Shown here piece by piece: positions 4,223 through 30,892 of a stretch of 64,000 nucleotides of DNA. The DNA is taken from the NCBI GenBank assembly GCA_903922735.1, contig CAIXUZ010000077.1:1-64000 (forward strand), read 5' to 3'. The DNA is from an uncultured Verrucomicrobia subdivision 3 bacterium. GTDB lineage: Bacteria > Verrucomicrobiota > Verrucomicrobiia > Limisphaerales > UBA11358. The position numbers were made by a program, and so were the translations under genes. The notes under the pieces are model-generated. The model searched no databases and had not been told where the DNA came from. It saw only the letters and a list, made by a program, of their open reading frames with translations. The stretch's first letter is position 1. Each line of letters begins with the position of its first letter.

Positions 4223-5353
4223 TGCTGCCATCAGCGAACAACCGCGAGGTTCAGCCAACTGCGCGCGACCAATGAGTTCAAAGCCGTCGCCCCGGCGGAC
4301 TCCCAAATCCTCCGTTTGAATGGCGGCCACCGAAAACACATTCGCCAAGTCGAAAATACGGATGAGTCCGGCTTCCCCCTCGGCCACTTCGCGGCCGCTC
4401 TCCGGTGAAATGATCTGCACGCGCGACCACGGCGGGAAGCGGAAGACCCGAGGATGAAGGATGGACGATGGAGGATAAATCTCAGCGTCGTAAGCCTGTG
4501 AGCTCAATTCGCTCATGCCGTATTCGCAGATGATGTTTTCGCGCGGCACGCCGAGGCGTTCAGTGATGAGCGCGTGCAGCTCGGCTTTAGGCAATGAGCG
4601 GGAACGGTTTTTGTAGCCACCGGTCTCCATCACCCGCGAACCGGCGGGCAGTTCAAACCGCAAATTACGCTCCGCCAAATAATCCAGCAGGTGCACGAAA
4701 GAAAAGGCGGTGCCGAGCATAAGCGATGGTCCAGCTTCTGGCGTCTGGCTTCCGGGGAAAAGCGAGCCCTTTACTGCACCATAATCCAGCGTCCACGCAC
4801 CATCGGCCGCCAGTTTGCCGAGAAATTCAGAACGGCTCGCGGGGACGCTCGCCCCACCGAATTTTTGCCGCACCGCTTCAAACATGTAGACGAGCGAGGA
4901 ATGCGGCGCCTGTTCCGGCGATGGCGCGAGGCAAATAAATTGTAAATTTTTAGTTTTGAGTTTTAAGTTGGAAATCAAGTTAGATTCGAACCAGGTCCAC
5001 AACGACGTCTCATAAACCGACAGCGACTCCGGACAATGGAAATGGCGGCTAGGCTTCTGCTCCGTCGTGCCGCTGGAATGGAAGACGGCGGCGCGTTCGG
5101 CTGTGGGAATACTCGATATTTCCAGTTCCTTGAATGCACTAGTCGGCATGGCGGGAATTTGCGCCCAATATTCAACCGCTTGCGGCGTGAGCTGGCGCAC
5201 CTCGCAGCTTTTCCGATAGGCGGCGTTGTGTTTGAACTGGAGAGAAAACAGTTCCAACGCGAGTTCGGAGAATTGGCGATTGCCGATTGTCGATTGTCGA
5301 TTGGCAATCAGGCCGCGCATGTGCGCGGCGAAGGAATAAAGTTCTGGATTCAT
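4220..5353 (-). CDS. luxE: LuxE-like acyl-protein synthetase (acyl-AMP forming)
   Basis: A 377-residue LuxE-family adenylating enzyme. LuxE activates a fatty acid as acyl-AMP, holds it on a cysteine and passes it to LuxC. Seen here are the HSSGTTEQKPSRH loop (phosphate-binding, near residue 95), a METGGYKNRSR block and an ICEYGMSELSSQAYD block, all typical of the ANL-type LuxE/PaaK fold. The ATG at 5353 is chosen; the longer frame upstream overlaps the promoter region of metG. Three separate heptamer arrays lie within the frame, as does one GC-rich 25-bp repeat, so the protein has several low-complexity inserts. The core motifs are intact and the frame is unbroken. Confidence 0.82.
   Translation of the reverse strand: MNPELYSFAAHMRGLIANRQSTIGNRQFSELALELFSLQFKHNAAYRKSCEVRQLTPQAVEYWAQIPAMPTSAFKELEISSIPTAERAAVFHSSGTTEQKPSRHFHCPESLSVYETSLWTWFESNLISNLKLKTKNLQFICLAPSPEQAPHSSLVYMFEAVRQKFGGASVPASRSEFLGKLAADGAWTLDYGAVKGSLFPGSQTPEAGPSLMLGTAFSFVHLLDYLAERNLRFELPAGSRVMETGGYKNRSRSLPKAELHALITERLGVPRENIICEYGMSELSSQAYDAEIYPPSSILHPRVFRFPPWSRVQIISPESGREVAEGEAGLIRIFDLANVFSVAAIQTEDLGVRRGDGFELIGRAQLAEPRGCSLMAA
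4452..4479. repeat. Heptamer array b (inside luxE)
   Basis: Four 7-bp units on the plus strand: GGATGAA, GGATGGA, CGATGGA, GGATAAA. They encode a PSSILHP-like loop of luxE without breaking the frame. Confidence 0.8.
4834..4858. repeat. GC-rich 25-bp dispersed repeat, copy 1 (inside luxE)
   Basis: The segment starting GGCTCGCGGGGAC and ending CTCGCCCCACC recurs, with changes, at 17794-17817 (inverted), 17842-17862 (partial) and 21598-21625. In luxE it encodes a GGASVPASR-like loop. Confidence 0.6.
4938..4985. repeat. Heptamer array c (inside luxE)
   Basis: Units AAATTTT, TAGTTTT, GAGTTTT, AAGTTGG, AAATCAA repeat with a 7-bp period and encode an NLKLKTKNLQ-like stretch within luxE. Confidence 0.75.
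5278..5305. repeat. Heptamer array d (inside luxE)
   Basis: Four units GATTGCC, GATTGTC, GATTGTC, GATTGGC in strict 7-bp register near the start of luxE, encoding an NRQSTIGNRQ-like stretch. Unit sequence differs from arrays b and c, but the period is the same. Confidence 0.85.
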
Positions 5354-18763: not shown

Positions 18764-18791
18764 TTTCCGCTTTCCGCCTTCCGCTTTCCGC
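18764..18791. repeat. Heptamer array f (upstream of hisA)
   Basis: Four units TTTCCGC, TTTCCGC, CTTCCGC, TTTCCGC in 7-bp register, directly upstream of the hisA start. This is the reverse complement of the GCGGAAA unit seen inside mutY and amgK. Confidence 0.88.
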
Positions 18792-18805
18792 TTTAGTCTT
18801 GGCCG

Positions 18806-19585
18806 ATGTTTCGACCGTGCATCGACCTGCATGAAGGCAAAGTGAAGCAAATCGTCGGCGGCACGCTCAGCGATGCCGGCGCGCGCACCAATTTTGTCTC
18901 CGCCCAATCCGCCGCGTGGTTCGCCGAACTCTATCGGCGCGACGGCCTGACCGGCGGACACATCATCCAGCTTGGCTCCGGCAACGAAGCCCAAGCCCGC
19001 ACCGCACTGGCGGCGTATCCCGGCGGATTACACCTGGGCGGGGGCGTGAACGCCTCAAATGCGCACGACTGGCTGGATGCCGGCGCATCGCACGTCATCG
19101 TCACGAGCTGGGTTTTTCGCGAAGGCCGCGTGGACTGGTCCCGGCTGGACGAACTCGTCAAAACCATCGGCAAAGGAAAGCTCGTGCTGGATTTAAGCTG
19201 CCGAAAAAAAATCCAAAGTCCAAAGCCCAAAGTCCAAAGTTATTTTGTGGTCACTGATCGCTGGCAGAAGTTTACCGAACTGGAAGTGAATGAGGAAACG
19301 CTTCAGAAGCTTTCCGGCTACTGCGCGGAGTTTTTGATCCACGCCGTGGATGTGGAAGGTTTATGCCGGGGCATTGACTGCGAACTGGTGACGAAGCTGG
19401 GCCAATGGACGCCGATTCCAACAACCTATGCCGGCGGCGCGAGCGCGCTGGCCGATCTTGAAACGGTCACACAGCTTGGCGGCGGAAAAATCGACCTGAC
19501 CATCGGTTCGGCCCTGGACATCTTCGGCGGCAGCGGCGTGAAATACGCGGATTGCGTGAAGTTCAACCGAGCGCAGACAAAATAA
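18806..19585 (+). CDS. hisA: ProFAR isomerase, eukaryotic-type HisA/HIS6
   Basis: A 259-residue phosphoribosylformimino-AICAR ribotide isomerase of histidine synthesis. It follows the eukaryotic (yeast HIS6) subtype rather than ordinary bacterial HisA: FRPCIDLHEGKVKQIVGGTL at the start, TNFVS, HLGGGVNASNAHDWL, VIVTSWVF, LVLDLSCRK, FLIHAVDVEGLCRGID, TYAGGAS and LTIGSALDIFGG all line up with the yeast sequence as I remember it. A heptamer array is inserted in the loop after DLSCRK, lengthening it by a few residues. Other his genes are not nearby. Confidence 0.88.
   Translation: MFRPCIDLHEGKVKQIVGGTLSDAGARTNFVSAQSAAWFAELYRRDGLTGGHIIQLGSGNEAQARTALAAYPGGLHLGGGVNASNAHDWLDAGASHVIVTSWVFREGRVDWSRLDELVKTIGKGKLVLDLSCRKKIQSPKPKVQSYFVVTDRWQKFTELEVNEETLQKLSGYCAEFLIHAVDVEGLCRGIDCELVTKLGQWTPIPTTYAGGASALADLETVTQLGGGKIDLTIGSALDIFGGSGVKYADCVKFNRAQTK
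19215..19242. repeat. Heptamer array g (inside hisA)
   Basis: Four units AAAGTCC, AAAGCCC, AAAGTCC, AAAGTTA in strict 7-bp register. They encode the KIQSPKPKVQS insert of HisA in a surface loop. Confidence 0.88.
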
Positions 19586-21632: not shown

Positions 21633-22817
21633 GTGCCAGACAAATCAAAACTAAAAACTAAAAACACCAAACTGGTTGCAACTCTGCTGGATTGGTTCGC
21701 CGCTAACGCCCGCGACCTTCCGTGGCGCCGCACGCGAAATCCCTACGCAATTTGGATTTCGGAGATCATGCTGCAACAGACGCAGGTGAAAACGGTGATC
21801 CCGTTTTGGGACCGCTGGATGGAGGAATTGCCAACCATCGAAGCCGCCGCCCAAGCGCCTTCAGCCAAAATCCACAAGCTCTGGGAGGGCCTCGGCTACT
21901 ACACCCGTGTCCGAAATTTGCAGAAGTCCGCGCAAGTCATCGTGGAATGGCACAGCGGCAAGTTTCCGAAAAGGTTTGAAGATATTCTCGCGCTGCCGGG
22001 TATCGGGCGGTACACCGCCGGGGCGATTAGTAGTATCGCTTTCAATCAGCCGACACCGATTCTCGACGGCAACGTCATCCGTGTGCTGACGCGCCTCTTC
22101 GGCATCGCGAAAAACCCAAAGGAGAAGGAAACAAACGCTCTGCTGTGGCAACTGGCGGAAGAATTGGTGGTTCGCGCGAAGAACGCGAAGGAAACTCAAA
22201 CTTCAAAAGCGGAAAGCGGAAAGCGGAAAGTGGAAATGAGTCAGAGCCTACTCACGTCGGCTGGCTCGTGCTCCGCACTCAACCAATCGCTGATGGAACT
22301 GGGTGCGCTGATTTGCACGCCGCGCAACGCGCAATGTTTAATTTGTCCGGTGAAAAAACTCTGTGCGGCGTTCAAGGAGAACCGGGTGGTGGAGTTGCCG
22401 AATCTCGGCAAACGCGAAACCGCCACGGCGCGGCATTTCATCGCCTTTGCGGTGGAGCATGGCGGAAAGTTTCTCGTCCGGCAAAGGCCGGCGGGCGTAG
22501 TGAACGCACAGCTGTGGGAGTTTCCCAACGTGGAAGTGGGAGGGCGGCTCTGTGAGCCGCGGGAACTATTTACTGAATGCAATGCGCTGCGGGTCACAGA
22601 CCCGCGCTCCGTGAAGATTAAGCCGCTTTGCACGGTGAAACATTCCATCACGCGCTACCGCATCACGCTGGAAGCCTTCCTGATTCACGCTAAAACGATT
22701 TCATCACCCACCGACGACGTCTGGAAAACTCCCGCGCAAATGCAAACGCTGGCTTTTACCGCTGCCCATAAAAAACTCGCCAGCGCCGCCGCCAAAAGTA
22801 TCCTGTCAGGCCGATGA
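21633..22817 (+). CDS. mutY: Adenine DNA glycosylase (A/G-specific) with repeat inserts
   Basis: A 394-residue MutY that removes adenine paired with 8-oxoguanine. Visible are LPWRRTRNPYAIWISEIMLQ with the catalytic Glu (EIMLQQTQV), the helix-hairpin-helix LPGIGRYTAGAI, the Asp in ILDGNVIRV, the iron-sulfur cysteines in CTPRNAQCLICPVKKLC, and a NUDIX-like C-terminal domain with LWEFPNVEV and KHSITRYRITLEAF. Three repeats lie in the frame: a heptamer array at the GTG start, a second before the SCSALNQSLMELG block, and a cloverleaf palindrome in the C-terminal domain. The frame is intact and the active site is complete. Its stop overlaps the next gene by ATGA. Confidence 0.92.
   Translation: MPDKSKLKTKNTKLVATLLDWFAANARDLPWRRTRNPYAIWISEIMLQQTQVKTVIPFWDRWMEELPTIEAAAQAPSAKIHKLWEGLGYYTRVRNLQKSAQVIVEWHSGKFPKRFEDILALPGIGRYTAGAISSIAFNQPTPILDGNVIRVLTRLFGIAKNPKEKETNALLWQLAEELVVRAKNAKETQTSKAESGKRKVEMSQSLLTSAGSCSALNQSLMELGALICTPRNAQCLICPVKKLCAAFKENRVVELPNLGKRETATARHFIAFAVEHGGKFLVRQRPAGVVNAQLWEFPNVEVGGRLCEPRELFTECNALRVTDPRSVKIKPLCTVKHSITRYRITLEAFLIHAKTISSPTDDVWKTPAQMQTLAFTAAHKKLASAAAKSILSGR
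21645..21672. repeat. Heptamer array h (start of mutY)
   Basis: Units TCAAAAC, TAAAAAC, TAAAAAC, ACCAAAC with a 7-bp period, encoding the KLKTKNTKL N-terminus of MutY. Confidence 0.82.
22206..22233. repeat. Heptamer array i (inside mutY)
   Basis: Four units AAAGCGG, AAAGCGG, AAAGCGG, AAAGTGG. They encode KAESGKRKVE just before the helix leading to the iron-sulfur cluster. Confidence 0.92.
22538..22611. repeat. Cloverleaf palindromic element 3 (inside mutY)
   Basis: Two perfect 7-bp hairpins, GCGGCTC-TGT-GAGCCGC at 22544-22560 and GCGGGTC-ACA-GACCCGC at 22589-22605, sit inside near-complementary outer arms (GGAGGGC and GCGCTCC). The loop triplets TGT and ACA are the same as in the element at 802-851. 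It lies within the coding frame of the MutY C-terminal domain. Confidence 0.8.
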
Positions 22818-29342: not shown

Positions 29343-29849
29343 ATGCTAAAATCACACGAACTCCTCGGTTTCATGTCGCCGGCGCTGGCGAACGACATCC
29401 TCTCCTTCATCTTCGAATCCGACAAGCCGGCCTACCGCGCCACGCTCGCCGCCGTGGCGGAAGCCAAGCACGTCCGCCCGATTTTTCTCGAACGCCAGCC
29501 GCGCGCCGAGCGCCACACCGCCATGCTGTCTGCGCTCACCAAGCCCAATCTCGACCCCGCCGCCGCCGCATTCATCCGCGCGTGGCTGGTAAAAAAGCAC
29601 GCCGCGATGCTCATCGATTTCCTCAATGCCCTGGAAATCAAAAACGACAACGGCGTCGTGGAAGATCTGCCGGGCGCAGTGGACGACGCCAAGCTGAAAG
29701 CCGCCGTGGAGCGGCTGCTGGGCAAATATCCGCACGAAACCGTCGCCGTCTATCTGAACGCATTCAACGACATGAACACCGCCGGCTGGACAAATTTGAA
29801 GGCCTTGCTGGAATCCGATCCACGCCTGCAGCTCGGCAACCACGCCTGA
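29343..29849 (+). CDS. Conserved hypothetical protein upstream of amgK
   Basis: A 168-residue, mainly helical, soluble protein with no signal sequence. Recognisable stretches are MSPALANDILSFIFESDKP near the start, an LERQPRAERH segment, and VAVYLNAFNDMN with LLESDPRLQL near the end. I do not recognise a family with known function. Its stop is 2 bp before the GTG start of the amgK gene, so it is probably co-translated with the MurNAc recycling genes and may regulate or assist them. Confidence 0.75.
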   Translation: MLKSHELLGFMSPALANDILSFIFESDKPAYRATLAAVAEAKHVRPIFLERQPRAERHTAMLSALTKPNLDPAAAAFIRAWLVKKHAAMLIDFLNALEIKNDNGVVEDLPGAVDDAKLKAAVERLLGKYPHETVAVYLNAFNDMNTAGWTNLKALLESDPRLQLGNHA

Positions 29850-29851
29850 CC

Positions 29852-30892
29852 GTGGCCGAACCCCGCGCATTCCCCGGCTTCGCCCCATGGAAAACCGCCG
29901 CGTGCGAACCGCTCACCGGCGACGCCTCGGCGCGAAAATATTTCCGCCTGCGCGGGGAGCAGCAGACGGCCATTTTGATGGACGCCGCGCAGGTGCCTGA
30001 CTCGGTGGCGCCATTCATCCGCATCGCCAGCCAGCTTCGGAAAATCGGCTTCAGCGCCCCGAAACTTTATTTGCAAGACCAGGCCAACAGCCTGCTCCTA
30101 TTGGAAGATTTCGGCGATGACACTTTCGCCAAACTGCTGGATCAATCCGGCAGGAACCGAGGTGACGAGGCTCAGGTTAAAAGCGGAAAGCGGAAAGCGG
30201 AAAGCGGAAATTATTCAGAGACTCCTCACCTCATCGCCTACGATTCGGAGACACTTTTCACGCTGGCGACCGATGTTTTGATTGCGCTGCACCGGCAGCC
30301 GCAGGCGGCTCCCGAAAAACTGCGCGAGTATCATCCGGAGAAGATGCTGGAAGACATCGAGCTATTTGTGCAGTGGCGCACGCCCCAGGTCACCGCGCTG
30401 GAAAAAGAAGATTTCCGCGCAGTCTGGCGAGCGGTGCTACCGCTGGCACACCGCGTTCCCTCATCGCTGCTGCTGCGGGACTACCATGTCGCCAACCTCA
30501 TGCTGCTGCCGGACCGAGACGGCATCCGGCAAGTCGGGCTATTAGATTTTCAGGACGCCTATCGCGGCCCGGTGACCTATGACCTGGTTTCCCTGCTCGA
30601 AGACGCGCGACGCGACGTGCCGGAAGCCTTGCAGCAAAAATTGCGGGCACGCTACCTTGCGGCTTTTCCCGCGCTCAATCATGAGATTTTTGAGACGTCG
30701 CTGGCCATTCTCGCGGCGCAACGGCACACCCGCGTGCTGGGCATCTTCGAACGGCTGGCGCGGCATGAGGGCAAGCTGGATTACCGCCGGCTGCATTCGC
30801 CGCGCGTGGAGCGATTGTTGCAAAAGGCACTGCGCCACCCCATGCTGGCCGACGTGAAAAACTGGATAGACCGCCATGCCATCACGGACTGA
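29852..30892 (+). CDS. amgK: Phosphotransferase of AmgK type (anomeric MurNAc/GlcNAc kinase)
   Basis: A 346-residue aminoglycoside-phosphotransferase-fold kinase. Visible are GDASARKYFRL (nucleotide loop, near residue 25), LLLEDFGDDTFAKLL, the catalytic loop LLRDYHVANLML with the base Asp, and the metal-binding LLDFQDAYRGPVTYDLVSLL. These are the marks of AmgK, which phosphorylates free MurNAc at C1. The following nucleotidyltransferase is MurU-like, and the two form the recycling route that bypasses de novo UDP-MurNAc synthesis in Pseudomonas. Start is GTG at 29852. A heptamer array is inserted near residue 110, between the lobes. Confidence 0.8.
   Translation: MAEPRAFPGFAPWKTAACEPLTGDASARKYFRLRGEQQTAILMDAAQVPDSVAPFIRIASQLRKIGFSAPKLYLQDQANSLLLLEDFGDDTFAKLLDQSGRNRGDEAQVKSGKRKAESGNYSETPHLIAYDSETLFTLATDVLIALHRQPQAAPEKLREYHPEKMLEDIELFVQWRTPQVTALEKEDFRAVWRAVLPLAHRVPSSLLLRDYHVANLMLLPDRDGIRQVGLLDFQDAYRGPVTYDLVSLLEDARRDVPEALQQKLRARYLAAFPALNHEIFETSLAILAAQRHTRVLGIFERLARHEGKLDYRRLHSPRVERLLQKALRHPMLADVKNWIDRHAITD
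30180..30207. repeat. Heptamer array j (inside amgK)
   Basis: Four perfect AAAGCGG units encode [10 protein letters not shown]. The unit is the same as in mutY (22206-22233), but it is read in a different codon phase. Confidence 0.95.

Follow-up and report, generated by a model that had tools for sequence, protein, structure and literature searches.

A HIS6-type hisA that appears resident in Limisphaerales-like bacteria, with the plant and fungal enzymes as probable offshoots of its family

INTRODUCTION

How does a gene for histidine biosynthesis that carries a eukaryotic family name come to lie on a bacterial chromosome? The question is raised by an open reading frame at positions 18806..19585 (+ strand) of a 64,000-nt stretch of verrucomicrobial DNA, which was analyzed as a whole and is called the window below. 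A first-pass annotation of this frame described its product, here termed P0001, as a eukaryotic-type HisA (HIS6) and proposed either an old transfer or an origin of the eukaryotic gene in this bacterial group. Plants and fungi use the histidine pathway and mammals lack it (PMC5585171). Because the plant and fungal enzymes are of the HIS6 type, the origin of this family is relevant to how eukaryotes put together their amino-acid biosynthesis from genes of bacteria.

Computation places P0001 in the HIS6 family by sequence and by fold, detects no other HisA in its genome, and finds that the HIS6 type and the canonical type exclude each other in samples of three phyla. The reading we favor, with a probability of roughly 0.87, is that the gene is a resident, Limisphaerales-like bacterial hisA whose product is a ProFAR isomerase of the HIS6 subfamily that replaces the usual HisA, and that the enzymes of plants and fungi branched off from this subfamily, apparently on separate occasions. 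On this reading, P0001 would be a (beta-alpha)8-barrel enzyme converting ProFAR to PRFAR, and its subfamily would be widespread in bacteria, where it would serve in place of the usual HisA. The enzymes of plants and fungi would have left the bacterial family by apparently separate routes, and the hisA gene would be a resident of its lineage rather than a recent gift from a eukaryote.

FAMILY ASSIGNMENT OF THE GENE

The frame is open exactly over 18806..19585, begins with ATG, and encodes 259 aa without interruption, and the reverse strand carries stops over the same span. P0001 scores 377 bits against the NCBIfam model TIGR02129 (“hisA_euk”; cut-off 229.3) and covers profile positions 3-255 of 255, versus 63.2 bits for the ordinary HisA model TIGR00007, which is below the cut-off of 228.95. 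The first-pass claim of a match to the HIS6 subtype along the full length is therefore borne out. The hisA-trpF model TIGR01919, which represents PriA, gives 22.2 bits (cut-off 306.45), so that P0001 falls outside both the canonical HisA and the PriA families.

A phmmer search of the PDB with P0001 returned Medicago HISN3 at 265.3 bits and yeast HIS6 at 234.7 bits, and the next match scored 25.8 bits. On the joint alignment, P0001 is 53.6% identical to the Medicago protein and 50.2% identical to the yeast protein. By family, the frame is confirmed as a real gene of the HIS6 type, with a product predicted from its sequence to be a ProFAR isomerase (EC 5.3.1.16).

FOLD AND ACTIVE SITE

The AlphaFold model of P0001 (mean pLDDT 91.1, pTM 0.90) has the fold of yeast His6 and plant HISN3. 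It superimposes on Medicago HISN3 bound to PrFAR with Z 40.3 and rmsd 1.2 over 251 aligned residues, on the same enzyme bound to ProFAR with Z 39.5 and rmsd 1.2, and on yeast His6 with Z 34.5 and rmsd 1.1 over 227 aligned residues. The match to canonical Salmonella HisA has Z 26.8, with about 19% of the structurally matched residues identical, and PriA (Z 26.5) and HisF (Z 26.4) follow close behind; Foldseek's own ranking places HisF chains ahead of canonical HisA. Thus, P0001 resembles yeast His6 (PDB 2agk), Medicago HISN3 (PDB 9fcf, 9fcg), and the TIGR02129 family over its whole length in both sequence and fold, whereas PriA, a dual HisA/TrpF isomerase (PDB 3zs4, 2y88), shares the fold but little sequence signal.

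Several active-site positions of canonical HisA can be located in the gene. Asp7 (codon 18824..18826, + strand) aligns with Asp7 of Escherichia coli HisA and with an Asp in yeast. Its counterpart in Medicago HISN3 is residue 57, which appears as Asn in the alignment because the crystallized protein was engineered (D57N). Gly78-Gly80 (codons 19037..19045, + strand) correspond to Gly79-81 of canonical HisA, a phosphate loop whose role is described in PMC7591586. Trp153 (codon 19262..19264, + strand) aligns with the substrate-stacking Trp145, and Glu184 (codon 19355..19357, + strand) aligns with the catalytic Asp176. Both D176 and W145 are named as key catalytic residues in Salmonella HisA (PMC9088769).

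Canonical bacterial and archaeal HisA (TIGR00007) therefore has in common with P0001 the barrel, Asp7, the Gly-Gly-Gly phosphate loop, Trp145 and, judged by exclusion (see below), the same slot in the pathway. The two types differ at several other active-site positions; the alignment with E. coli HisA pairs Asp176 with Glu184, Asp129 with Ser131, Arg83 with Asn82, and Thr171 with His179 of P0001. Yeast His6 and Medicago HISN3 carry the same altered states at all four, and they also share with the bacterial protein two more altered active-site residues, Gln15 and Gly18 (P0001 numbering). Across 174 HIS6-type rows, the conservation of Glu184 is at least 98%. By alignment, this residue is likely to stand in for Asp176, and the catalytic residues of P0001 would be Asp7 and, probably, Glu184.

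DISTRIBUTION AMONG BACTERIA

Carriers of the HIS6 type were counted as genomes with a TIGR02129 match over its cut-off, in the phyla reachable from the matches. The type was found in 123 of the 288 genomes sampled from the window's phylum, Verrucomicrobiota (the window's own genome counted), as well as in 91 of 100 Fibrobacterota, 7 of 188 Myxococcota, and 3 of 199 Bacillota, the tallies including the centre genomes (L112, L115, L116), which were chosen as gene carriers and whose labels supply the last three phylum names, and also L114's genome among Fibrobacterota. None of 14 named control genomes had a match over the cut-off; Methanocaldococcus jannaschii gave a weak one.

At least 520 relatives of P0001 were confirmed in GTDB genomes. 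Among the best 80 of these, 72 are labelled Verrucomicrobia(ota), Limisphaerales, Pedosphaera, or Akkermansia, three are labelled “bacterium” or Proteobacteria (L045, L068, L061), and the rest are labelled Fibrobacter(ales) (two), Paenibacillus (two), and Myxococcales (one). The closest relatives among the matches listed bear labels such as Verrucomicrobia subdivision 3 and Limisphaerales, in agreement with the first-pass placement of a HIS6 type in a PVC bacterium. With 123 carriers among 288 genomes in the phylum and 91 among 100 Fibrobacterota, the type is not exotic for this bacterium. “Eukaryotic type” is thus a label, which is better replaced by a description of the HIS6 type as a bacterial alternative HisA with its own set of active-site residues. 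In titles and the openings of abstracts of openly licensed literature, no report of HIS6-type HisA in Verrucomicrobiota or Fibrobacterota was found.

These data bear on whether the gene was recently passed from a eukaryote to this bacterium, as the plant and yeast proteins being its best matches among solved structures might suggest. The nearest relatives are bacterial, with up to 88% identity versus 54% for Medicago, and the type is common in the phylum. Some close relatives also have the same neighbours: thiG, hldE, and panB (as read) lie near the HIS6-type gene in the stretch fetched for L037, L039, and L040, and among 80 loci a homologue of the 110-aa downstream neighbour occurs in 17 and a thiG homologue in 7. 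The frame is uninterrupted, and its GC content (0.587), GC3 (0.696), and codon distance (0.453, the third highest of 19) fall inside the ranges of 18 neighbouring genes. We consider a recent eukaryotic source scarcely credible.

Some individual records deserve mention. L061, L072, L074, and L088 are MAG contigs labelled “Proteobacteria bacterium” or “Akkermansia muciniphila” and carry HIS6-type genes 69-71% identical to P0001. In a 127-row tree described below, L061 and L074 lie among rows labelled Limisphaerales or Pedosphaera, and the labels of all four may be wrong. Two genomes, G157 and G758, each hold two full-length HIS6-type copies; those of G157 (L197) are close together on C42 (48040-48789 and 49977-50726) and have equal scores.

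HIS6-type hisA is also present in Paenibacillus, both in P. hemerocallicola (L116, G291) and on a plasmid of P. cellulosilyticus (L178, 8995-9753), where the public record already names it hisA. The other three PF00977 matches of G291 score as HisF-like, so the HIS6 type may have taken over from the usual HisA in this genome as well. A further copy is on a stool “phage” record (L179, MT839235.1). When viral contigs were scanned with the Medicago or yeast protein, no relative was found; an alignment query returned two IMG/VR UViG contigs (L225, L226). Both copies look Fibrobacter-like by eye, and a chaperonin-like gene adjoins the one in L226, which makes host DNA more likely than viral genes.

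REPLACEMENT OF CANONICAL HISA

The window's draft genome (95.4% completeness, 5.6% contamination) was searched for the HisA/HisF family and for hisD. Pfam PF00977 detects one strong HisF (C64) and the HIS6-type gene, with four further matches below the cut-off, and no second HisA was found by this search. A hisD gene is present on another contig, and the HIS6-type gene of the window stands apart from other his genes.

Counts of canonical HisA cover three samples, those from the window's phylum, Fibrobacterota, and Myxococcota. The 288 genomes of the window's phylum comprise the 123 HIS6-type carriers, 146 with the canonical type (139 above the cut-off and 7 scoring 221-225 bits), none with both, and 19 with neither, including two in which fragments are seen (G246, G107). 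From the two frequencies, about 62 genomes with both types would be expected. The Fisher p for this mutual exclusion is 1.7e-61, a value that ignores shared ancestry. The Fibrobacterota sample is divided into 91 carriers, one genome with the canonical type and without the HIS6 type, none with both, and eight with neither (one of them, G756, with a fragment).

In Myxococcota, the phylum of G290, 7 genomes have the HIS6 type, 70 have the canonical type (E up to 1e-50), none has both, and 111 have neither. Because the thresholds used leave 111 of 188 genomes without either type, exclusion is weak in this phylum; these genomes could have a divergent HisA or another enzyme, or could be incomplete. 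In the three phyla together, none of 221 HIS6-type carriers also has canonical HisA, and thus the HIS6 type seems to replace the usual enzyme.

In a competing view, P0001 would be a paralogue resembling HisA/HisF but with a different function, such as one linked to amidation like that of WbuZ/HisF2, and histidine would be made via an undetected HisA. The protein does match the WbuZ model (49.3 bits) and the AglZ/HisF2 model (47 bits) weakly, but the cut-offs of these models are 299.7 and 310 bits. The lack of another detected HisA and the mutual exclusion in three phyla also speak against a paralogue, as does the position of the gene in some relatives: in L056 and L058, hisD, hisB, and hisH lie just upstream on the same strand. 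L191 has a weak hisC match in the fetched stretch, and the stretches fetched for the other 183 of 186 loci contain no hisD, hisB, hisH, or hisC match near the HIS6-type gene. On balance, a paralogue with another job is very improbable, and a HisA replacement by the HIS6 type is preferred.

The exchange can be followed inside single genera of the window's class. In genus g3, 15 genomes carry the HIS6 type and three the canonical type (G051, G184, G286). Another four (G005, G069, G105, G113), which are possible histidine auxotrophs, match neither type under the thresholds applied. In genus g17, G140 has the HIS6 type, and G085 and G260 have canonical HisA. Such mixed genera argue for repeated exchange of HisA types. 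A clean one-for-one exchange, even inside single genera, constitutes a natural case of a pathway enzyme being replaced by a distant relative.

RELATIONSHIP TO THE PLANT AND FUNGAL ENZYMES

The 174 HIS6-type rows, which include one fungal sequence (yeast) and one plant sequence (Medicago), were reduced to 127 and then to 62, mainly by identity. Left out were 15 ORFs below 150 bits (HisF, canonical HisA), duplicates, rows redundant between sets and, from the 62-row set, L030 because of its long branch. The HIS6 type forms one group that is split from seven canonical HisA rows with 100/100 support, its bootstrap being not fully settled, and a position of P0001 inside typical bacterial HisA was not seen. 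When canonical HisA was tried as a root for quick and careful trees, the root moved between runs and the connecting branch was about 10 substitutions per site; because this branch is too long and the root is unstable, it was not used.

P0001 lies among rows with labels such as Verrucomicrobia subdivision 3, Limisphaerales, and Pedosphaera in both the 127-row and the 62-row trees and adjoins neither eukaryote. Unlike yeast His6 and Medicago HISN3, it is a bacterial, chromosomal protein placed among verrucomicrobial rows. An origin of the gene nested in or beside eukaryotes was considered and dropped on these grounds, with two eukaryotic rows in the trees. In the quick 127-row tree, P0001, yeast, and Medicago belong to three groups (52, 34, and 37 rows; SH-aLRT 83, 87, and 94, respectively). 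In the careful 62-row tree, a branch with 98/98 support has yeast and 22 bacterial rows on one side and, on the other, Medicago, P0001, and 37 further rows.

Nine columns picked on bacterial rows only separate the two sides of the 62-row tree. At these columns, yeast has one state in nine of nine and Medicago the other in nine of nine, and P0001 has six Medicago states and three yeast states. A whole-row log-odds score puts Medicago (-63.2) clearly on its own side; yeast, at 0.5, is inside the range of its own side (-9.8 to 49.9) and above that of the other (-101.8 to -9.8). Yeast sits on a long branch (about 1.0), and for neither eukaryote are its immediate neighbours supported.

If HIS6 were instead one old eukaryotic gene, inherited vertically in eukaryotes and passed early to bacteria, where it then spread, the plant and fungal proteins should belong together. 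The HIS6 root is not placed and the trees hold two eukaryotic rows, which leaves some room for this alternative. Yeast and Medicago are 45% identical, yet they reach 55% and 60%, respectively, with bacterial rows, which by label span at least four phyla. In a test chosen after the first trees had been seen, forcing the two eukaryotes together lowers the log-likelihood by 41.5 (p-AU 0.005). With LG+G4 and another alignment of 56 rows (without L201, L187, L155, L188, L179, and L178), the drop is 61.1 (p-AU 0.028). The grouping occurs in none of 200 bootstrap trees from the other runs. An old eukaryotic gene is thus unlikely, although less so than the other two alternatives above.

These data are best explained by a bacterial family with separate entries into fungi and plants; with one sequence from each, this is a lead rather than a result. 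Of the two origins offered by the first-pass annotation, a bacterial source of the eukaryotic gene fares better than a transfer into this bacterium. Neither yeast nor Medicago adjoins the gene's own group. The separation of the two eukaryotes in the trees suggests at least two bacterial sources. Because the root of the HIS6 family moved between runs, the direction of transfer rests on parsimony, and with two eukaryotic sequences and an unsettled root, donors and direction are not proven. No report of separate fungal and plant HIS6 origins was found in the titles and abstract openings of openly licensed literature.

HEPTAMER REPEATS IN THE GENE AND ITS GENOME

P0001 also differs from yeast His6 and Medicago HISN3 by an extra loop around residues 135-145, which is encoded by an in-frame tandem array of 7-bp units of the TCCAAAG type inside hisA (19208..19240, + strand). 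A second 7-bp array, of the TTTCCGC type, occupies 18764..18794 in the gap directly upstream of the gene. Further period-7 arrays of the window are at 5272-5308, at 22204-22237 inside an ORF read as mutY, and at 30178-30212 inside ORF 29582-30892. The window thus contains five such arrays, versus none in 10 Markov shuffles. Heptamer arrays of this kind are reminiscent of Rickettsia palindromic elements and cyanobacterial STRR repeats.

The hisA loop varies among relatives. In the window it is 21 bp longer than in L040, the nearest relative (88% identical), and other inserts relative to L040 occupy the same loop in L038 (+27 bp), L037 (+75 bp), and L043 (+72 bp). Those of L037 and L043 consist of a forward array followed by a reverse-complement-like array and look hairpin-forming; they fold at -45.5 and -49.4 kcal/mol, respectively, as computed with RNA parameters, flanks included, and without a shuffled control.

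Period 7 stands out throughout the genome. In 762 kb there are 37 period-7 arrays with many different units (for example, on contigs C60, C36, C49, and C77), versus 0-3 arrays for each period of 4-6 and 8-13 and 25 for period 14, a multiple of 7. By an ad hoc codon score, 25 of the 37 arrays are inside genes, 3 are flanked by coding signal on a single side, and the remaining 9 on neither side. In the 578 kb around relatives, period 7 accounts for 20 arrays and every other period for 1-6. Period-7 arrays number 3 in 149 kb of Fibrobacterota loci (0 for other periods) and 3 in 205 kb of other verrucomicrobial loci (0-3 for other periods), and 82 kb of Myxococcota and Bacillota loci contain none.

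A more ambitious account joins these repeats to the history of the family: fungi and plants would have taken HIS6 from different branches of a bacterial family, centred on Verrucomicrobiota and Fibrobacterota, whose members take the place of the usual HisA one for one. The gene in the window's lineage would in addition have been invaded in frame by 7-bp repeats that spread into coding genes and that in relatives are partly hairpin-like. We give this combined account about even odds. A precedent for the repeats may be found in Beggiatoaceae, where intergenic heptamers (PMC4679880) likewise form tandem 7-bp units across a bacterial genome; unlike those, the arrays reported here have many different units and mostly lie inside apparent genes.
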